Positions 45,597 to 62,052 of a DNA stretch of 64,000 nt are shown one piece after another (positions within the stretch are counted from its first letter, which is position 1; each line of letters begins with the position of its first letter). Both the position numbers and the translations under genes were made by a program. Source of the stretch: Anaerolineae bacterium (GTDB lineage: Bacteria > Chloroflexota > Anaerolineae > Caldilineales > Caldilineaceae); NCBI GenBank assembly GCA_030432295.1, contig JAUIHI010000014.1, positions 62,001 to 126,000 on the forward strand, given 5' to 3'. The notes under the pieces are model-generated. The model made no database searches, had not been told where the DNA came from, and was given only the letters and a program-made list of their open reading frames with translations.

Positions 45597-47654
45597 TCAG
45601 AATCGAAACAACGATTTCAGAAATTCATAGATCACTTCGTCCTGGGCCTGCATATCCCGAATGAGCAGGCCGCCGTCGAAGGTTTGGACAACCCCATCCG
45701 TGACTGTGGCTGGCGCGGTGGCCCAGCCCAATGTGCCACGCAGCACATTATTCTCTGCCCAGAGCTGTCCGATGCCCTCTTCCGGCAGGAAAAGACCGGG
45801 CGAAGGCGGGGTCAGTTCCGGGTTCAGCGGCAGGGGCGACATCCCCTCTTCCCAACGGTCCGGATGCTGCTCCCACTGGCCGTTGCCGGCAAAGCGCACA
45901 TAAATGGCCCGGATGTCGTCCCGGCGCAGCATCAGCCCATTCTGGAAGGGCTGCACGGCAAAAGTGATTGGGCGGCCCTGGTCCGTGGCACAGCCCAGGG
46001 CCTCGATCTTGCCCGGCTGCAAGAGATAATTGTAGAGTTCCTGCATAGCCACGTACTGGCAGGCCACAGCCACTTCCTCTTCCGGCGTGGGTGTGGGCAG
46101 AGGCGGCGTATCCGTTGGCACGACGACCGCGGGTTGGGTCGGGCGCGGGCTGGGCCGGGGACGGGGGATGGATGTCGCGGTCGGCAGTGGTGGCACGGGC
46201 GTCGCCGTAGGGCTGGGCGTGGCGGTCGCCTGGCTCACGGCTGGCGGATTGTCTGTCTCAACAGGCACAACCGCTGTTTCAGTCGGCACAAGACCGATGA
46301 AGCTTTGGGTGGCTGTGGAACGCAAAACAATCGGCTGACTGGTGGCGGTGACGTCTCTTTGCGCGGGGAAGAGACGGGCAAAGGGCGAACCAGAGCCAGC
46401 GCTGATCAACACCACAGCCACCAGAAGCAGCGCCAGAACCCCAACCGCACCGGCCACAAGACGCGGCCAACGGCTCTGTATGGGTTGGGAGCGGGCGGCG
46501 ACGGGCTGAACCCGCGGCGGTGGCGATGGCGCTACGGATGGCAGGGGCGCGACGCGTGGTGCAACCCCCTGAGTCTCGCTGGCCGTGGTCCGGGACGAGG
46601 CCACAATTACCGTCTCGGTGCGCTGGGGCGGGGCAGCCGGACCCACCGCAGAGAGGCTGGCGAGGGTGAGGGTCGATGTAGCTTCTGCCGGTCCCGCATC
46701 AATGGGCGGCAAACTGCGGCCCGCGGCCAGAGTCAATGCGTCGGCCATTTCCAACGCGCTGGCATAGCGTTCTGCCGGTTCTTTGGCCAGGGTAGAACGC
46801 AGAAGATCCACCACCCGGGGCGGCAACGCGGCCAGAATATCGTCGGGAATTGTCACCGATTCGTAGACGTGGGCGTAGAGAATCTGTGTGGTGGAGCCGA
46901 GAAAGGGCGCGCGCCCCACCAGACAACGATAGAGCACCGCGCCGAGCGAGTAGATGTCGCTCTGGGCGTTTACATCCCGGCGGCCCGCGCACTGCTCCGG
47001 GGCCATATAGGCGGGGGTCCCAATCGTGCGCCCCACATTTGTCAGTTCCGGGGTGTCCAGGGCGCGGGCGATGCCAAAATCCGAGAGAAGGGGAATGACC
47101 GGGTGGTCCAGGGCTTCCAACTGGACACTGCCCGGAGCGCCGGGGCTGGCCGGGCGCAGGAGAATATTGCTGGGCTTCACATCCCGGTGGATGACGCCAG
47201 AGCGGTGGGCTAGGGCCAGGGCCTGGGCGATGGGGGTGAGCAGATTGCAGCTCTCTTCTGCCTGCAATTTGCCCCGCCGTTCCAGCAGCCGGGCCAGGCT
47301 CTCACCTTCGATCAGTTCCATCGCTATGTAGGCCACACCGTCCGCGGGTGCGTCGCCCACTTGCAGGGTGGCGACGATATTGGGGTGACGCAGCGCACCG
47401 GCAGTGCGGGCCTCCTGGCGGAAGCGGGAGCGGGTGGTCTCGTCCGCGCCGGGAAGGAGTACCTTCAGCGCGACGGAACGTCCCTGCACCTGGTCATAGG
47501 CCTGATAGACCGCGGCCGCGCCACCGCTGCCCAGTCGCCGTCCGATCAGATAACGGCCAATCTGCCGTCCGGTCAGATTGGCCGTATCGTAGCGTTCCTC
47601 GGCATTGGGCGAGCCATCCGATTCAAAAAGCGAGCGTTCGTTGGATTCAGACAC
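45597..47654 (-). CDS. Transmembrane Ser/Thr protein kinase with extracellular lectin-like tail
   Basis: 685 residues. A Hanks-type kinase domain fills ~30-315: glycine loop LGSGGAAAVY (41-50), Lys64 in VALKV, HRDVKPSN (156-163), DFGIA (192-196), and APEQCAGRRDVNAQSDIYSLG. The juxtamembrane stretch ends at a single helix (~398-419). The outside part has a Thr/Pro-rich linker and a C-terminal ~150-residue domain with FLPEEGIGQLWAENNVLRGTLGWATAP, common in Chloroflexota secreted proteins and perhaps peptidoglycan- or sugar-binding. Divergent from it, across 119 bp, is an FHA-winged-helix regulator that could be its substrate or reader. Confidence 0.92.
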   Translation of the reverse strand: MSESNERSLFESDGSPNAEERYDTANLTGRQIGRYLIGRRLGSGGAAAVYQAYDQVQGRSVALKVLLPGADETTRSRFRQEARTAGALRHPNIVATLQVGDAPADGVAYIAMELIEGESLARLLERRGKLQAEESCNLLTPIAQALALAHRSGVIHRDVKPSNILLRPASPGAPGSVQLEALDHPVIPLLSDFGIARALDTPELTNVGRTIGTPAYMAPEQCAGRRDVNAQSDIYSLGAVLYRCLVGRAPFLGSTTQILYAHVYESVTIPDDILAALPPRVVDLLRSTLAKEPAERYASALEMADALTLAAGRSLPPIDAGPAEATSTLTLASLSAVGPAAPPQRTETVIVASSRTTASETQGVAPRVAPLPSVAPSPPPRVQPVAARSQPIQSRWPRLVAGAVGVLALLLVAVVLISAGSGSPFARLFPAQRDVTATSQPIVLRSTATQSFIGLVPTETAVVPVETDNPPAVSQATATPSPTATPVPPLPTATSIPRPRPSPRPTQPAVVVPTDTPPLPTPTPEEEVAVACQYVAMQELYNYLLQPGKIEALGCATDQGRPITFAVQPFQNGLMLRRDDIRAIYVRFAGNGQWEQHPDRWEEGMSPLPLNPELTPPSPGLFLPEEGIGQLWAENNVLRGTLGWATAPATVTDGVVQTFDGGLLIRDMQAQDEVIYEFLKSLFRF

Positions 47655-47773
47655 AGGTGAATTTCAGATTGGCTGGCACAGTTGCATTTGGTATGATGCG
47701 TAGATGATTCTAGCACAGCCGCGAGACCGGGCAAAGATACCAGCCAATAGGTAGGGACGAAGGATATACTGTT

Positions 47774-48430
47774 GTGAGCCAATACGGACGACTGATCTGT
47801 CTATCTGGCCCGAATATGGGCAAAGAATATGAGCTGAGCGGCGAAGTGACCGATGTGGGGCGAGCGGCCACGGCCCAGATTGTGCTGGCCGATAGTTTTG
47901 CCAGCCGCCAGCACGCGGAAATCTATTTTGTAGATAACGGCTATCAGATTCGGGATTTAGGCAGCAAAAATGGGGTCTATGTACGGAAGGAACGGCTGGC
48001 AGCCGATGGCCGGGTCTGGCTGAACGACGGGGATGAAGTGCAATTTGCCTCCACCCGTTTCCGTTTCCAGGACCCGTCGGCCACTGTGACCGCGCCAGCG
48101 TTGATGGCTGTGGCTGCGCCGGGCGAGCGCCCCGGTCTGCGGGTGGATATGGCAACCCGCCAAGTCTTTGTGGACGGGGTTGTGCTGGACCCGCCTCTGA
48201 GTGTCAAACAGTTCGACCTACTCTGGTATCTCTACGAAAACCGGGGGCGGGCCGTGAGCAAAGACGAAATCGCCCTCAATGTCTGGTCTGAGAGCGAGGG
48301 GGATACCTACGACGCCAACATCGACCGGATGGTCAGCCGGGTGCGCAACCGCATCGAGCCGGGGGAGAGCGAGGAAGCCCGCTTTATTACGACTGTGCGG
48401 GGGTATGGGTATCAGATGCTGGTGGATTAA
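47774..48430 (+). CDS. FHA-domain winged-helix response-type regulator
   Basis: 218 residues; the start is GTG at 47774. The N-terminal FHA domain (~20-98) has the phosphothreonine-binding marks VGRAATAQIVLADSFASRQHAEIYF and DLGSKNGVYVRKERL. The C-terminal domain (~125-216) is an OmpR/PhoB-type winged helix (PPLSVKQFDLLWYLYENRGRAVSKDEIALNVW, ANIDRMVSRVRNRIE, ITTVRGYGYQML). It lacks a receiver domain, so the DNA binder is controlled by phospho-Thr binding rather than by Asp phosphorylation. It is divergent from a Ser/Thr kinase, which fits a kinase-FHA regulator pair like EmbR-PknH. Confidence 0.92.
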   Translation: MSQYGRLICLSGPNMGKEYELSGEVTDVGRAATAQIVLADSFASRQHAEIYFVDNGYQIRDLGSKNGVYVRKERLAADGRVWLNDGDEVQFASTRFRFQDPSATVTAPALMAVAAPGERPGLRVDMATRQVFVDGVVLDPPLSVKQFDLLWYLYENRGRAVSKDEIALNVWSESEGDTYDANIDRMVSRVRNRIEPGESEEARFITTVRGYGYQMLVD

Positions 48431-48656: not shown

Positions 48657-49280
48657 ATGAGCCTGGCACTAACCCAATCCTATCCTGCAAACTCTCTGGC
48701 ACTGGAGATGACCGCCACGATCCACGCGGCCCGGGCCGGCGATGAATCCGCTTTTTGTCACCTATGCGAAACATATCAAGCCGCGGCCGAGCGGGTGGCC
48801 CGTCACATTCTGCGCACGGAAGAGGCCGCTGCCGACGCAGTGCAGGACGCGCTGATCAAAGTCTACAAAGCCATCCCAAACTTCGAGGATGGCAATTTCC
48901 GTGCCTGGCTGCTGCGTATCGTCACCAACACCTGCTACGATCACCTGCGCCGCCAGAAACGCCGGCCCGCCATCAGTCTCGACGCGCTGCTGGAAGAATC
49001 ATATACAGAAATGCCCGACACCCGCAGCAGCCACGACCCGGAGCGAATGCTCCTGCGCCGGGAACAGCGTGAGTTTCTGCGCGGTGTCATCAGCGAGCTT
49101 TCGCCCTGGCACAAAGAAGTGGTGGTGCTGGTGGATGTGATGGGCTACGACTACGCCGAAGCCGCCGCGCTGCTAGGGCTGCCCCTGGGCACAGTCAAAT
49201 CCCGTCTGAGCCGGGCACGGGCCAATCTGCGCGATCGCCTGACCGCGGCCAACTATCTCCCCGGCCCTGTGCGTCACTGA
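48657..49280 (+). CDS. ECF-subfamily RNA polymerase sigma factor
   Basis: 207 residues from the ATG at 48657, preceded by AAAGGAG. Sigma region 2 reads FCHLCETYQAAAERVARHILRTEEAAADAVQDALIKVYKAIPNFEDGNFRAWLLRIVTNTCYDHLRRQ (about 33-101). Sigma region 4 reads LLRREQREFLRGVISELSPWHKEVVVLVDVMGYDYAEAAALLGLPLGTVKSRLSRARANLRDRL (about 135-200). No anti-sigma gene follows; the next gene is on the other strand. An alternative internal start at 48708 would remove 17 residues that do not belong to the sigma core. The regulon is unknown. Confidence 0.92.
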   Translation: MSLALTQSYPANSLALEMTATIHAARAGDESAFCHLCETYQAAAERVARHILRTEEAAADAVQDALIKVYKAIPNFEDGNFRAWLLRIVTNTCYDHLRRQKRRPAISLDALLEESYTEMPDTRSSHDPERMLLRREQREFLRGVISELSPWHKEVVVLVDVMGYDYAEAAALLGLPLGTVKSRLSRARANLRDRLTAANYLPGPVRH

Positions 49281-50945: not shown

Positions 50946-52643
50946 ATGTCCACAGCAGCCCGTCTCGTCCTGCTTCACCCGCAACGGGGAAAAGATAGCG
51001 CCTTCGATCTCCAGGCGCAGCAGCTCTCCCTGGGCCGGGCCACGGCCAACGACATCGACCTGCTCGACCCGAAGGTCTCCCGCTTCCACGCCCGGCTGGA
51101 GCGTGACACCGGGGGTGGCTGGGCACTGGTCGATCTGGGATCGGGCAACGGCAGCCACGTCAACGGCCAGCGGGTGGAACGAGCCGATTTGAAATCCGGC
51201 GACGAACTGCGTCTGGGCGACAGCCGCCTGCGTTTCGAGACAGCGCCGGCCTCTTTGCCCGACCAGCAGACAATTATCGACACCCCCGCCCAGCTCGACG
51301 CCACTCTCATCCAGACCCCGTCGCCCGTGCAGATCAACCGGGTGGACGCGCCCCGGCTGGCCGTCTTTAGCCAGGGCGCAGCCTGGGAGGTGACGTTGGG
51401 CGACGGTCTCTCCATCGGGCGCCAGGCGGACAACGGCGTTGTGCTGGCCCAGCCGAATGTGTCGCGCCTGCACGCCTCCATCGAAAGGCGCAGCCAAGGC
51501 GGGCAGGAGGTCTATGTACTGCGGGATCGGGAGAGCGGCAACGGCACGTGGATCGGACAGGAGCGTGTCAACGAACGGGTCCTCTCCCCCGGCGATACCA
51601 TCCGCATCGGCGACGCCCGGCTGGCCTTCAAACCCCCCGTGCAGGACGAACAGCAGACCCTTATTGAAGCACCGCTCAAACGCCAGCGGCGGCCTGTCGT
51701 CTTTGTGCCGGGGATAATGGGTTCCCAACTCTGGCTGGGCAGCGAACGGGTCTGGCCGAATGTGCGCACCCTCTTCACCAACCCGGAGATATTCCGTCTG
51801 CCCGACGACACACCCCTGACCCCCAACGGCATTGTGGACGAAGTGGTGGTCGTGCCCAACCTTATCCGCCAGGAGCAGTACAGCCGGCTGAGCGAATTTC
51901 TAGTGGAAAGTCTGGGCTATACCCGGGGCGTGGACCTGCTGGAATTTGCCTACGATTGGCGGCAGGATGTGCGCGAGTCCGCCCGAAAGTTGGGTGAGGC
52001 CATTGAGGCCTGGGGGGTGACCCCGCCGGTGACAATTATCGGCCACAGCCTGGGAACCCTCGTCACCCGCTATTTTGTGGAGCGGCTGGGGGGCAACCGG
52101 TTGGTGGACAAACTGCTGCTGATGGGCGGTCCCCACCAGGGCACGCCAGAAGCGGTGACGACCCTCGTTTCCGGCCCCAATCTGCTCCCCTTTGGGCTGC
52201 TGGGCGAACGACTGCGCGAGGTGCTGGCGACCTTTCCCACGGCCTATCAGATTCTGCCCCGCTACGCCTGTGTGCAGGACGAATCCAGCCAGCCGGTGGA
52301 CATCTACGCCAACCCCCTCTGGCTGCCCGATGAACGGCGTCCCCTGCTGGCTCTGGCCCAGGAATTTCAGAACGAACTGGCCTATGCACCGCCCAGCGTG
52401 CCAACCGTCTGCATCTTTGGCTATGCGCAAAAGACTCTCACCGACTTACACATTCGCCGGGGTCCCGCGGGCGGCTGGCAAAATCTCGACTTGAAGCGCT
52501 TGGAGGAAGGGGACAATTCCGTGCCCCAGGCCAGCGCTGTGCTCCCCGGCGCGGATGTCCATCCCGTGCAGCAGCATCACGGCTCTTTATATGTGGACAG
52601 CGATGTACGCATGCGGCTAACGGTAGAATTGACGTGGCGGTGA
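50946..52643 (+). CDS. FHA-FHA-lipase (LCAT-like alpha/beta hydrolase) fusion
   Basis: 565 residues from the ATG at 50946 with GGAGG upstream. Two FHA domains come first (~25-98 and ~152-228): LSLGRATANDIDLLDPKVSRFHARL with GSGNGSHVNG, and LSIGRQADNGVVLAQPNVSRLHASI with SGNGTWIG. Each has the Gly-Arg, Ser-Arg-x-His and Ser-Gly-Asn-Gly marks needed for phospho-Thr binding. The last ~315 residues are an LCAT-type lipase/acyltransferase: PVVFVPGIMGSQLWLG (oxyanion region), LLEFAYDWRQD, nucleophile Ser368 in GHSLG, and a late QQHHGSLYVD that may supply the catalytic His. No signal peptide is visible, so it acts in the cytosol on lipids or acyl esters under kinase control. This pairing is unusual. 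Confidence 0.9.
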   Translation: MSTAARLVLLHPQRGKDSAFDLQAQQLSLGRATANDIDLLDPKVSRFHARLERDTGGGWALVDLGSGNGSHVNGQRVERADLKSGDELRLGDSRLRFETAPASLPDQQTIIDTPAQLDATLIQTPSPVQINRVDAPRLAVFSQGAAWEVTLGDGLSIGRQADNGVVLAQPNVSRLHASIERRSQGGQEVYVLRDRESGNGTWIGQERVNERVLSPGDTIRIGDARLAFKPPVQDEQQTLIEAPLKRQRRPVVFVPGIMGSQLWLGSERVWPNVRTLFTNPEIFRLPDDTPLTPNGIVDEVVVVPNLIRQEQYSRLSEFLVESLGYTRGVDLLEFAYDWRQDVRESARKLGEAIEAWGVTPPVTIIGHSLGTLVTRYFVERLGGNRLVDKLLLMGGPHQGTPEAVTTLVSGPNLLPFGLLGERLREVLATFPTAYQILPRYACVQDESSQPVDIYANPLWLPDERRPLLALAQEFQNELAYAPPSVPTVCIFGYAQKTLTDLHIRRGPAGGWQNLDLKRLEEGDNSVPQASAVLPGADVHPVQQHHGSLYVDSDVRMRLTVELTWR

Positions 52644-52650
52644 GTACGCC

Positions 52651-52731
52651 CCGGATTGAAATCCGGTCTCATAGCTCAAGTCGGCTGAAGCCGACTCCAC
52701 CCAACAACATTTGAGTCCACTTCAGTGGACT
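52651..52731. repeat. Three short hairpins in tandem with TGAA/TTCA cores
   Basis: CCGGATTGAAATCCGG (52651-52666), AGTCGGCTGAAGCCGACT (52679-52696) and AGTCCACTTCAGTGGACT (52714-52731) are each self-inverse around a TGAA or TTCA centre. Such hairpins recur between genes in many bacteria. They fill the gap between the FHA-lipase and the kinase-TPR gene and may end the former. Confidence 0.8.
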
Positions 52732-52782
52732 TCCACTTTCAGATGGCAATTCATTGCCAAGCCACAACCAACCAACACACCC

Positions 52783-55700
52783 ATGAACCCAACAATTCCC
52801 GACTACACAATCACCCGGCTCCTCGGCCAGGGCGGAATGGCCGAAGTCTATGCAGGGTTGGACCCGGAGTTGGACCGGCCTGTCGCCATCAAACTCATCC
52901 ACCCCCGGCTGGCCGTGGACGCGCAGTTCGAGGAGCGCTTCCGCCGGGAGGCCCGGCTGGTGGCGAGCCTGCGCCATCCCCACATCGTCCAGGTCTACGA
53001 CTATCAGGTGACCGACAACGGCCCGGTGATGGTGATGGAGTTTCTTCCCGGCGGCTCCCTGAAAGAGCGGCTGGATGATCTGCGCGGCCAGGGCCAACGG
53101 CTGCCCCTGGCCGAAGCCGCCCGCATCACCGGCGCCCTGGCCTCGGCTCTGGACTACGCCCACCGCCAGGGCGCGGTCCACCGGGATGTGAAACCGGCCA
53201 ACGTCCTCTTCGACCGGGAGGGCGCGCCCGTCCTGGCTGATTTCGGCATTGCCCGCATTCTGGACGACGAGAGCGGTCTGACCCAGCCGGGCACGCTTAT
53301 CGGCACGCCGGCCTACCTTTCCCCAGAGCAGGCCGCGGGGGAAGTGGTCGGCCCGGCCAGCGATCTTTACAGCCTGGGCATCGTGCTATACGAAATGGTC
53401 ACAGGCGCGCCTCCCTTTCAGGGCACGACGACGGCCATCCTCACCGGCCACGCCAGCGCCCCGCCCCCTCCGGCGGCCAGCCGGGTGGTGGGTCTGCCCG
53501 CCGCGGTGGATGAGATTCTGCGTCGGGCGTTGGCAAAATCGCCCGCTGACCGCTTCCCCAGCGGCGCGGCCCTGGCCCAGGCATTGCGCAACGCCATCGG
53601 TGCTGCCATCGGCGAGACCGGTGTCGCCGCGCCTCTGACCGACCAGCCGACACTCATCGAAGCCCCGCAGACGACACCCGGCGCAACGCCCGCGCCGACT
53701 GCAACGCAACCTGCCCCCCAGCCCGCCAGCACCAGCCAGAATGACGACCCGATGGCCCAACTGGCCGAAAAGCTGGATGTTCTCTCTCCCCTCATCGGCC
53801 ACTCCATCCCCGACGCCTATCGGGACGGGCGTAGCCGTCTGGCAACGACACTGGGGCTGGTCGGCCTACTCTTTGCTGCCCTCAAATTTCTCACTGACTT
53901 TTTGGATCTGGCCCAGAAAGCCTGGCGGCCCGTTGGCCTCGCCCTGCAAAGTCTGCCTGTGCTGGTGGGCCTGCTGTTGCTGACCGGTGCGGGAGCCGCG
54001 CTGGTTTCTCTGCGTCGTCCCAACCGGATGCTCAACCGGCAGCGGGCGCTGGGACTCTTTGTCGGCCTGGCCCTAGCCGCCCTGCTCTGGAGCGGCTGGA
54101 CAGTAGCCCAGTGGCTGCGCCCCCCGGACAAGCTGATCGTCGCCATCGGCGAATTCGAGCGTTTCAGCAGCCGGGTGGGCAACCCCGCAGGGGACCTCTT
54201 TGTGGCGATGGAGCGGGCCTTTGCCCCCTTGCAGGAGCGGGTCAGTGTTCAGCGCACCTACCGCTCTTATACCAGCGCGGCCGAAGCCAAAGCCGACGGG
54301 GTGGCCCGGGGCGCAGTGGCCCTGCTTTGGGGCAGCTACAGCGATGACGGCGTTACCGTCTATATGGAGGCGATGGAGCCGCCCACCCAGGCCGAAATCG
54401 GCGGCGTATCCCTCTCTCTCCAGAAATTCTCCGGGCTGGCGGAGCGCATCGGACTGGGGCGGGCTGCCCCCTCGGATGCACTGAACCGTTTCCAGCGGGA
54501 ACCCCTCTACATCCCGGATCGGGTCTCCTTTGCCGCAGCCGAGACAGAGCAGATGACCGCCGCGGCCGCCTTTGTGCTGGGCGTCAGCTTTCAACTGGCC
54601 GGCGATAGAGAGAGCGCACTGGCTTTGCTCGATCAGGCGGTGGCCGGGATGGGGGACGGGGAGAGCGGGCTGGTCGGTGGCGAGATGCTCTACTTCCAGC
54701 GGGGGGTGCTGCGCTGGGAGGAAGGCCGCCAGGACGAGGCCATCGCCGATATGGAGCAGGCCGTCGCCCTGGCCCCGGACTATTACCCCCCCCGCTACAA
54801 TCTGGCGATCTTCTATGCCAGCGGTTGCCCCACACCGGCCCGCATCGAACAGGCCGTTGCCCAGGCGGAAGAGGCGGCCCAGATTCGGCCCAACGACGAC
54901 ACCCATCACAATCTGCTGGCGTCGCTCTATTTGCAGGCCGGGCGCACTGGGGATGCCCTGGCCCTGCTCGAACAGAGTGGCGCGGCAGCCCCCACCACTG
55001 CCGAGGAGTATCTCTTCCTGGCCCAGCTCTACACAGGGCTGCGGGAAACGGACAAAGCCGCCGAAGCTGTGGAGCAGGTGCTGGCTCTGCTCGCCGCCCA
55101 GCCCAATCACAGCATTCAAGAGCAGTTGATGCTGGGCACCGCTTATCTCCTGGGCGAACGCTATACGGAAGCCCTGGCCGCGTTCCAGCCCGTCACCGAA
55201 GCCGAGCCGGAGAACCCGGATGGCTGGCAGGGCTTGGGCGACGCCCACTTTTGGCGGGAGGAATGGGCTGCCGCGCAGAGTGCTTATGCAAAAGTGGTGG
55301 CGCTGACGCCGGAGAGTGGGGACGGCTATCTGCTTCTGGGCCTGACCGCCTCGGCAGCCGGGGATCGCTCCGCCGCGGCGTCTGCGCTGGCCCAAGCCGC
55401 CGAACGCACGGCCTGCGATCCCACAGCGGCCCTTCTGCTGGGCGGGGAATATGTGTTGCAGGACGAATACACCCAGGCCATTGCCTCCTTTCAAAAAGTA
55501 TTGGCCCTGGACCCGGAGAATGGGAATGCCCTCTATCTCCTGGGCAGCGTCTATATTTTACAGGAGGATTGGGAGCAAGCGGAAGACGCCTATACCAGAG
55601 CCGCGGCCATCCAGCCGGACGATCCGTCGATTCTGCACGGGCTGGCGCGTACGCTTTCGGCCCAGGGCAAGGCAGTGGAGTCGGAAGGGCCGTGGCGGCG

Positions 55701-57063
55701 CTACACCGAACTGGTGCCCGATGACAGTGAGGCGTGGCAATTTCTGGCCCTAGCCCTGCTCTTTCAGGGGCGCAACGACGAAGCCGCCGCCGCGGCCCGC
55801 CAGGGGTTGGCCGTCGCCGAGGGCGGGGAGTTGTACGTCTCTTTGGGGATGGCCCTGGACGGCCTGGGAGAGAACGACGACGCGCGGGCAGCCTATCGGG
55901 ACGCTCTGGCTCTGGACCCGGAGAATGGGGGGGCATACCGGGGCATTGGGGAGATCAGCCGCCGGATCGGCGCGCTGGACGAAGCCATTGCCGCCTATGC
56001 GGAAGCCGCCCGGCTGAGCGGTGTTGCTTTGGATTTCATCGCCCTGGCCGCGCTCTATCAGCAGGTGGGCCAGATCGATGCGGGTCTGGCCGCCATCGCC
56101 GCGGCCCTGTCCACCGAGCCGGACAACAGCGACGCGCTCCTGCGCGCTGGTCTGCTGGAGCGGGATGCGGGCAATCTGACTGCAGCGGAAGGCTATTTTC
56201 AGCGTTCGGCCACTCTGCGCCCCGACGATCCCCTGCCCCTGCTGGGGCTGGTGCAGGTGGGTTATCAGCAGTGCCGGCTCTCCAGCGCGGGCCAGGCCGC
56301 GCGTCAGATGGTCGAACGAAACCCGGCAGCCTTCTTTCGGGGGACGCTTGCCTCCATCTATCTGGCCCAGGGGCGGGACAACGAAGCCCTGGCAATTGTG
56401 GATGAATTGCGGGCCAGCCCACCTGACGATGCGGAAGCGCACGGGGCCGCGGCCCGCCTGCTCCTCCGTCTGGACCGGCTGGACGAGGCCCTGGCCGAGT
56501 TCCAGTTGGCCGCCGACGCGACCGGGGCTACCAGCCCCAGCGCCGGGCTGATCTCCTATGAGTTGGGTGGGTTGTATCTGCTGCTGGGCCAGCCGCTGCC
56601 AGGGAGCAGTGAATACAGCCGCGCCCTGGCCCTGCGCCCTGGCCTGATTCCGGCCCAGGCGGGGCTGGGGGATGTGGCGCTCTGGCAGGGCGACGCAGCC
56701 AGGGCGGCGGATATCTACGCGGATGCGCTGGCCGCGCTGCCACTCTATCGCCCCCTGACGGATCAGGAAGATTACGAAGCCTTTGCCGGGATCACCCAGG
56801 GCAAGCAGGCCCTGGCCCTGGCCCGATTGGGCCGGGGCGAAGAGGCGGCAGAGATGCAGGCAGCGGCCATTGCCCAACTCAACCAATTGGTCGCGTCTCT
56901 GCCCCAAAGCCCCACCGCTCACTTTTCCCTGGCCCTTCTGCATCTGCTGGCCGAAGACGCAGTCGCTGCGGACAGTGCCTTTGCCCAGGCGGTCCAGTGC
57001 GACGCCTCTCTGACAGTTGTGCGGGAGCAGACGGAAAAAATCCTGGCAGAGTTGCAGGATTGA
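52783..57063 (+). CDS. Transmembrane Ser/Thr kinase with long extracellular/peripheral TPR array
   Basis: 1426 residues from the ATG at 52783; the 24-codon extension before it is not kinase-like. Kinase domain ~8-270: LGQGGMAEVY (14-23), Lys37 in VAIKL, HRDVKPAN (133-140), DFGIA (153-157), GTPAYLSPEQAAGEVVGPASDLYSLG. After a Pro/Thr linker, two or three membrane helices lie at ~345-450 (TLGLVGLLFAALKFLTDFLD, LPVLVGLLLLTGAGAALVSL, LGLFVGLALAALLWSGWTVA). The rest, ~600-1426, is an extended TPR superhelix (repeats such as AIASFQKVLALDPENGNALYLLGSVYI). TPRs usually capture partner proteins. It follows the FHA-lipase, whose FHA domains may read its phosphorylation. Confidence 0.92.
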   Translation: MNPTIPDYTITRLLGQGGMAEVYAGLDPELDRPVAIKLIHPRLAVDAQFEERFRREARLVASLRHPHIVQVYDYQVTDNGPVMVMEFLPGGSLKERLDDLRGQGQRLPLAEAARITGALASALDYAHRQGAVHRDVKPANVLFDREGAPVLADFGIARILDDESGLTQPGTLIGTPAYLSPEQAAGEVVGPASDLYSLGIVLYEMVTGAPPFQGTTTAILTGHASAPPPPAASRVVGLPAAVDEILRRALAKSPADRFPSGAALAQALRNAIGAAIGETGVAAPLTDQPTLIEAPQTTPGATPAPTATQPAPQPASTSQNDDPMAQLAEKLDVLSPLIGHSIPDAYRDGRSRLATTLGLVGLLFAALKFLTDFLDLAQKAWRPVGLALQSLPVLVGLLLLTGAGAALVSLRRPNRMLNRQRALGLFVGLALAALLWSGWTVAQWLRPPDKLIVAIGEFERFSSRVGNPAGDLFVAMERAFAPLQERVSVQRTYRSYTSAAEAKADGVARGAVALLWGSYSDDGVTVYMEAMEPPTQAEIGGVSLSLQKFSGLAERIGLGRAAPSDALNRFQREPLYIPDRVSFAAAETEQMTAAAAFVLGVSFQLAGDRESALALLDQAVAGMGDGESGLVGGEMLYFQRGVLRWEEGRQDEAIADMEQAVALAPDYYPPRYNLAIFYASGCPTPARIEQAVAQAEEAAQIRPNDDTHHNLLASLYLQAGRTGDALALLEQSGAAAPTTAEEYLFLAQLYTGLRETDKAAEAVEQVLALLAAQPNHSIQEQLMLGTAYLLGERYTEALAAFQPVTEAEPENPDGWQGLGDAHFWREEWAAAQSAYAKVVALTPESGDGYLLLGLTASAAGDRSAAASALAQAAERTACDPTAALLLGGEYVLQDEYTQAIASFQKVLALDPENGNALYLLGSVYILQEDWEQAEDAYTRAAAIQPDDPSILHGLARTLSAQGKAVESEGPWRRYTELVPDDSEAWQFLALALLFQGRNDEAAAAARQGLAVAEGGELYVSLGMALDGLGENDDARAAYRDALALDPENGGAYRGIGEISRRIGALDEAIAAYAEAARLSGVALDFIALAALYQQVGQIDAGLAAIAAALSTEPDNSDALLRAGLLERDAGNLTAAEGYFQRSATLRPDDPLPLLGLVQVGYQQCRLSSAGQAARQMVERNPAAFFRGTLASIYLAQGRDNEALAIVDELRASPPDDAEAHGAAARLLLRLDRLDEALAEFQLAADATGATSPSAGLISYELGGLYLLLGQPLPGSSEYSRALALRPGLIPAQAGLGDVALWQGDAARAADIYADALAALPLYRPLTDQEDYEAFAGITQGKQALALARLGRGEEAAEMQAAAIAQLNQLVASLPQSPTAHFSLALLHLLAEDAVAADSAFAQAVQCDASLTVVREQTEKILAELQD

Positions 57064-61998: not shown

Positions 61999-62052
61999 AA
62001 GATGACAAAATGACAAGATGACTGGGTGACTTCGATATCACTTTGTCATCTT
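61999..62052. repeat. Short palindrome with TGACAAGATGAC units between gltB and gltD
   Basis: AAGATGACAAA (61999-62009) is inverted at 62042-62052 (TTTGTCATCTT); GATGACA/TGACAAGATGAC repeats lie inside. It may act as an attenuator or RNA-stability element in the gltBD message. Confidence 0.5.

Follow-up and report, generated by a model that had tools for sequence, protein, structure and literature searches.

Does a Ser/Thr kinase gate a tandem-FHA lipase in Chloroflexota? A conserved gene pair with a shared threonine motif

Why would a lipase carry two domains that read phosphothreonine (pThr), and is the kinase encoded beside it the enzyme that writes the mark? The question is raised by a locus of an Anaerolineae bacterium (Chloroflexota; Caldilineaceae; assembly GCA_030432295.1) lying in a stretch of 64,000 nucleotides, positions 62,001 to 126,000 of contig JAUIHI010000014.1, which was analysed as a whole and is termed the window. 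A first-pass annotation had described at positions 50946-57063 an FHA-FHA-lipase gene beside a kinase-TPR gene and proposed that the lipase is recruited or switched by Ser/Thr phosphorylation, with the likely writer encoded next to it. Pfam, the open reading frames (ORFs) and structure alignment confirmed the domains and their coordinates, and comparisons of related sequences support the proposal; the module is real, conserved and plausible. We consider that the protein is probably a kinase-gated intracellular phospholipase that docks to its partner kinase and is switched by it (probability about 0.6). New in this analysis are an invariant motif around Thr238 of the lipase and a nearly identical motif in the linker of the kinase.

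The lipase comprises 565 amino acids counted from the ATG at 50946, in an ORF that opens at TTG 50913 and stops at 52643 (Table 1). Two stretches of the protein matched the FHA family PF00498 (4.4e-37, 126.8 bits against a gathering score of 20.7); by this above-threshold match and by their conserved GR, SRxH and NG residues, they are FHA domains. The C-terminal part matched positions 67-210 of the 392 of the LCAT profile PF02450 (2.7e-15, 56.9 bits against a gathering score of 21). An AlphaFold model covering 50946-52640 was built from an alignment, A1, of 23 sequences that left out L045, L052 and L054 (related loci are numbered with L and genomes with G); its mean predicted local distance difference test score (pLDDT) was 80.9 and its predicted template modelling score 0.78. 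With VIA-align, model residues 247-565 were superposed on lysosomal phospholipase A2 (4x97; Z 28.2, root-mean-square deviation (rmsd) 3.4, 307 residues aligned), the lipase Tle4 (4r1d; Z 26.1, rmsd 3.3, 297 aligned) and LCAT (5txf; Z 25.9, rmsd 3.8, 298 aligned), and the second FHA domain on GarA (7rj3; Z 17.1, rmsd 1.9, 100 aligned) and OdhI (4qcj; Z 16.8, rmsd 1.7, 98 aligned). The profile match and the modelled fold place the catalytic domain in the LCAT/LPLA2 family. The predicted Ser-Asp-His triad was recovered on alignment: the nucleophile Ser368 is present in 25/25 proteins, and Asp523 and His545, which we take to be catalytic from a motif pattern together with their conservation, are present in all 24 proteins that reach so far, as is His539. 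No signal peptide was seen in the protein when read by eye, no transmembrane segment was recognised, and Pfam gave no ABC domain; the protein is not a member of the Rv1747 exporter family, which it resembles in arrangement only.

Scanning genome contigs with the lipase part returned 26 loci. The FHA-FHA-lipase is encoded in 23 loci, L032-L054, which are labelled Chloroflexota or its subgroups except for L050, labelled an actinobacterial assembly. L054 is cut by a contig end, and in L052 (5619-9828) FHA, lipase and kinase are spread over several reading frames, reflecting broken genes or sequencing errors; L052 was omitted from the alignment of 25 proteins because its frames are broken. In all 25, the phosphate-binding residues of FHA1 (R31, S45, R46, H48, N68, G69) and of FHA2 (R159, S173, R174, H176, N199, G200) are invariant. 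As the same architecture recurs in L032-L054 with invariant FHA residues, it is not a product of chance.

The neighbouring gene encodes a Hanks-type Ser/Thr kinase, as judged from its Pkinase match (1.5e-47, 162.7 bits) and its catalytic motifs VAIK, HRDVKPAN and DFG; many TPR families follow in the same protein. Its ORF opens with TTG, and a likelier ATG lies 139 bp past the lipase stop. Conservation of this neighbour was, with the catalytic triad, one of the two points on which the first-pass annotation had said that it could fail; it failed on neither. It was scored in 29 loci: the window locus, L032-L054, L081, L083, L087, L091 and L092. L082, L084, L085, L086, L088 and L089 were left out as apparent repeats of counted loci, L003/L004 because their protein lengths and scores are the same, or nearly so, as those of L032/L033, and L007/L080 because of a truncated contig with the kinase in two frames. 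A kinase gene adjoins the lipase gene in 26 of the 29 loci, on the same strand in 24 and on the opposite strand in two (L035, L045). It lies two genes away in L053; L050, where the contig begins about 300 bases upstream of the lipase and adjacency is undecidable, was counted as non-adjacent. Kinase matches are few, 6 in this genome (which also has 6 FHA matches) and 350 in 41 genomes of the class (about 8.5 each), so that in genomes of a few thousand genes adjacency by chance is expected at less than 1% per locus and was rejected as an explanation. No kinase was found in the flanks of nine FHA-less lipase relatives, searched within four genes (L090, L096, L097, L098) or over the whole fetched stretch (L130-L134). 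The pair has not been kept as a single fixed operon: the kinase lies upstream with other ectodomains in one set of clades and downstream, often with TPRs, in the other. Distances between lipases correlate with those between kinase domains (Mantel r 0.81 over 23 loci, 0/5000 permutations as high), which could also stem from shared descent of the two genes. With adjacent and conserved genes for a kinase and a tandem-FHA effector, this is a putative writer-reader pair of the PknF/Rv1747 kind. Four loci (L039, L042, L045, L050) encode an FHA-ABC exporter with the Rv1747 architecture that adjoins the lipase gene or is one gene off. The neighbouring kinase of L035 (8968-12141) carries fused NB-ARC and TPR domains, a STAND-like architecture, and the gene next to the lipase in L047 encodes a cyclase-NB-ARC-TPR protein.

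A motif common to the two proteins makes the proposal more specific. The juxtamembrane linker of the kinase contains DQPTLIEAP, nearly identical to QQTLIEAP just after FHA2 in the lipase of the same locus. The threonine of the latter, Thr238, belongs to a T-hydrophobic-x-[DE] motif within a segment with pLDDT below 50 (residues 234-245; residues 102-108 of the other linker also score below 50), and is conserved in 25/25 lipases, with a hydrophobic residue at +1 in 25/25 and D or E at +3 in 21/25. In the linkers of 22 neighbour kinases (W_31 and L053_2, neither adjacent to an FHA-FHA-lipase gene, were omitted), T-x-[ILVM]-[DE] occurred 30 times in 1914 residues and 19 linkers were positive; 2000 composition shuffles gave a mean of 2.3 and a maximum of 8. 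Control kinases, 30 linkers from 29 loci (L105 gave two kinases; L125, the kinase of our own locus, was excluded), had 3 motifs in 1965 residues and two positive linkers. One of these two, L128, has an FHA reading frame at its own locus; such a frame is found in four more loci of the control set, counting our own locus L125, which did not serve as a control. The excess persists with one kinase per cluster, and the motif is kept or multiplied, to four copies each in L040, L042 and L051, while the rest of the linker diverges. Against the explanation of chance in Thr/Pro-rich linkers, the motif survives the shuffles, the control kinases and the one-per-cluster test, though independent clades are few. 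Between FHA1 and FHA2 of the lipase, a looser pattern, T[ILVM]x[DEN], is above chance (19/25 against 6.1 in shuffles). Combined, the motifs in the kinase linkers and the related threonine motif in the lipase linkers point to docking at the juxtamembrane region.

Several observations weigh against this reading. The motif pattern was written after most linkers had been seen, and the control linkers were not matched in length one by one. Three of the 22 neighbour linkers have no strict motif, and two of three kinases outside the motif definition were positive (L083 and L091; L092 was not). Clustering of the 22 kinases gives 3 groups at 50-55% identity, rising to 7 at 60% and 9 at 70%, hence few independent clades; the cluster majority carries the motif in 3/3, 5/7 and 6/9, respectively. 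The strict motif in the FHA1-FHA2 linker (9/25 against a shuffle mean of 5.1) is not clearly above expectation. The presumed catalytic Asp523 falls in a low-confidence part of the model (residues 522-525, pLDDT below 50). The module is patchy, with the FHA-FHA form in 4/400 genomes of the phylum, and L087 has no kinase beside its lipase, its neighbours being an opposite-strand ORF downstream before the contig end and, by eye, an ABC permease-like gene upstream. The closest relative of L087 in the tree, L036, has a kinase neighbour.

The mechanism that we propose would start with the membrane kinase sensing an external signal through its TPR ectodomain, or another ectodomain in relatives, and phosphorylating its own juxtamembrane linker at threonines of a T-x-[IV]-[DE] motif. 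Using one FHA domain, the cytoplasmic lipase would dock at the phosphorylated linker and would then itself be phosphorylated on related threonines of its linkers, chief among them T238, located between FHA2 and the catalytic domain. Intra- or intermolecular contacts of FHA domains with pThr may position the LCAT/LPLA2-type acyl hydrolase on the inner leaflet and switch it, and the envelope would be remodelled through local deacylation of phospholipids or acyl transfer. We propose docking, phosphorylation of T238 and other linker threonines, and rearrangement of FHA-pThr contacts because FHA domains recognise both pThr and the residue at +3, with pTxxD preferred by one class (PMC6468809; papers are cited by PMC number, each for the excerpted part of its text). 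We infer phosphorylation, FHA docking, the direction of the switch, phospholipase activity, its substrate and its physiological role, be it remodelling or damage of membranes, from sequence. A bolder version, in which the pThr readers gate the phospholipase directly, is tentative, at somewhat less than even odds: a surface-sensing kinase would recruit the lipase to the repeated T-x-[IV]-[DE] motif, flip the linker threonine and start phospholipid turnover, and the lipid products would in certain lineages be handled by an FHA-ABC exporter answering to the same kinase.

Known systems provide parallels. The phosphorylated juxtamembrane domain of PknB with FhaA is a precedent for docking (PMC12077195). 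Rv1747 of Mycobacterium tuberculosis likewise has tandem FHA domains and a linker fused to a membrane-acting effector, with the gene of its kinase PknF next door (PMC3908365, PMC9312465); both FHA domains are needed for the interaction (PMC3908365), and Rv1747 threonines are phosphorylated by PknF in vitro (PMC3908365, PMC9312465). The effector of Rv1747 is an ABC exporter, whereas here it is an LCAT-type lipase without a recognised transmembrane segment, and the kinase here carries TPR or other ectodomains; by analogy, we think that the lipase works like Rv1747 with another output. Lysosomal phospholipase A2 (PLA2G15) and LCAT are alike in fold, PF02450 match and nucleophile motif, but the window lipase is only about 21% identical, bacterial, apparently without signal peptide and fused to FHA domains. 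GarA and OdhI, in which a threonine located N-terminally near the FHA domain acts as the switch and which inhibit separate enzymes, are comparable in FHA fold (Z about 17) and in having a threonine in a flexible segment by the FHA domain as the likely switch; they differ from the present protein with its two FHA domains and fused enzyme. In EmbR/PknH and MupFHA/PknQ the output is transcription (EmbR) or unknown, compared with the lipid hydrolysis predicted here. What these two systems share with the proposed pair is an FHA protein as kinase substrate (PMC4238996, and for EmbR/PknH the title of a paper that it cites). Literature searches of open-licence papers found none describing an FHA-lipase, and the excerpted text of a survey of conflict systems (PMC7159879) names FHA among effectors with no mention of an FHA-lipase.

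The kinase could also act on the lipase without recruiting it. It would phosphorylate the lipase linker, FHA1 or FHA2 would bind the pThr of their own linker, in a closed form like that of GarA and OdhI or in Rv1747-like clusters, and the motif in the kinase linker would be a by-product of autophosphorylation at the substrate consensus. The higher conservation of Thr238 (25/25) than of the kinase motif (19/22) fits this account, as do the Rv1747 condensates that form through FHA domains and linker and are enhanced by phosphorylation (PMC9312465). However, retention or multiplication of the motif in otherwise divergent kinase linkers is what docking sites would display, and we regard a switch without docking as rather unlikely. 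Still less probable, in our judgement, is an effector for defence or self-killing, in which the kinase would sense infection or damage and release a membrane-destroying phospholipase. The patchy distribution, the NB-ARC and TPR domains in L035 and L047 and the structural likeness to Tle4, an effector of type VI secretion, would suit such a role. It is countered by the metabolic genes on both sides of the window pair (described below), by FHA-ABC neighbours that point to envelope transport, by lipase and kinase distances correlated as in a stably inherited pair, and by PADLOC, which gave 0 families for the lipase and, among the best 25 of 32 matches, only kinase-domain models for the kinase. 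As no model specific to a lipase effector was among them, a label of known anti-phage defence was not adopted.

It may also be asked whether the two genes are coupled at all. The pair could be co-inherited by descent, with the lipase a constitutive housekeeping esterase whose FHA domains bind unrelated phosphoproteins; the tree, in which the pair is largely vertical within clades, and retention of the lipase without adjacent kinase in L087 would be expected. We find this very improbable given that the kinase changes side and ectodomain between clades, that FHA-less relatives have no kinase neighbours and that most control kinases lack the motif excess. Gating of the lipase by docking to its partner kinase is the reading that we favour.

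If it is true, the lipase output would tie the turnover of membrane lipids to Ser/Thr signalling in bacteria, and Chloroflexota, whose envelope signalling has to our knowledge hardly been studied, would gain a defined writer, reader and effector. Bacterial kinase-FHA pairs are already tied to transcription factors, metabolic inhibitors and exporters; the surprise for a specialist is mainly the lipase output and the shared motif. With the short motif, a vague guess becomes a set of peptides open to testing.

The FHA-FHA-lipase with its kinase is an accessory module of patchy distribution in Chloroflexota. The lipase was matched in 10 of 400 genomes of the phylum at E<=1e-20, and the FHA-FHA form was seen in G000, G171, G387 and G392. 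Four of the other six (G071, G187, G209, G436) have no FHA domain in the lipase frame according to their flanks; G120 and G385 matched without flank data, so their FHA state stands outside this count. In the family of G171, 9 of 152 genomes matched, all nine with the FHA-FHA form, one of them cut by a contig end; in the order of the window the figure is 6 of 46. A phage origin is unsupported, with 0 matches to the lipase in phages. On plasmids 31 records matched, all below 60% identity and, among the ten matches listed, at 25-29% to the lipase part. A protein of 1583 amino acids encoded in L130 (7260-12011) combines CHAT and subtilase domains with a region that is LCAT-like, as judged from its similarity to the lipase of the window.

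Table 1. Positions of the lipase and kinase features in the window, and of exporter genes in related loci
Feature	Coordinates	Strand	Evidence
FHA-FHA-LCAT-type lipase gene	50946..52643	+	Pfam, alignment, AlphaFold model, structure alignment
FHA domain 1, pThr-binding residues GR, SRxH, NG	51027..51218	+	Pfam, family alignment
FHA1-FHA2 linker (stretch between the profile matches) with TIID and TLIQ threonines; pLDDT partly low	51219..51410	+	alignment, model
FHA domain 2	51411..51611	+	Pfam, family alignment
Thr238 of QTLIE, invariant, in low-confidence FHA2-lipase linker	51657..51659	+	alignment, model
LCAT/LPLA2-like alpha/beta-hydrolase domain	51675..52640	+	Pfam, structure alignment
Nucleophile Ser368 (GHSLG)	52047..52049	+	alignment
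Probable catalytic Asp523 (GDNSVP), pLDDT <50	52512..52514	+	alignment, model
Probable catalytic His545 (QHHGSL)	52578..52580	+	alignment
Ser/Thr kinase-TM-TPR gene, probable ATG 52783	52711..57063	+	Pfam, ORF reading
Protein kinase domain, HRD and DFG	52804..53610	+	Pfam
Kinase juxtamembrane linker with DQPTLIEAP, Thr codon 53650-53652	53611..53838	+	linker alignment
About three predicted transmembrane (TM) segments	53839..54102	+	simple hydropathy only
Predicted extracytoplasmic part: small alpha/beta domain, then TPR repeats	54121..57063	+	Pfam, model
FHA(1-3)-ABC exporter genes near lipase	L039:2015-4711; L042:934-4215; L045:6726-9155; L050:2154-4832		

The alpha/beta domain ahead of the TPRs was modelled with a mean pLDDT of 69.1; a structure search returned mainly TPR proteins, and no family was assigned. 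Downstream of the kinase gene, the large ORFs encode, by eye, two glutamate synthase subunits, and a class V aminotransferase (Pfam) is encoded upstream of the lipase gene on the opposite strand. Two near-perfect palindromes lie between the lipase and kinase genes (window 52680-52731); they were checked as possible repeats, and the second was found only at this locus in the genome, both strands being read. The genome has one PP2C match, far from the lipase-kinase locus, which could reset the switch.

Another kinase-FHA pair is present in the window at 45597-48430, where a kinase (45597-47654, minus strand) is divergent from a regulator with FHA and Trans_reg_C matches in Pfam, hence FHA and winged helix (47774-48430, plus strand); we take this pair to be EmbR/PknH-like. 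It is followed by a sigma factor of the extracytoplasmic function type (48657-49280). A third pair in the genome, at 5209-7098 of L093 (G000:C20:64000-78000), consists of an FHA protein on the minus strand divergent from a kinase on the plus strand.

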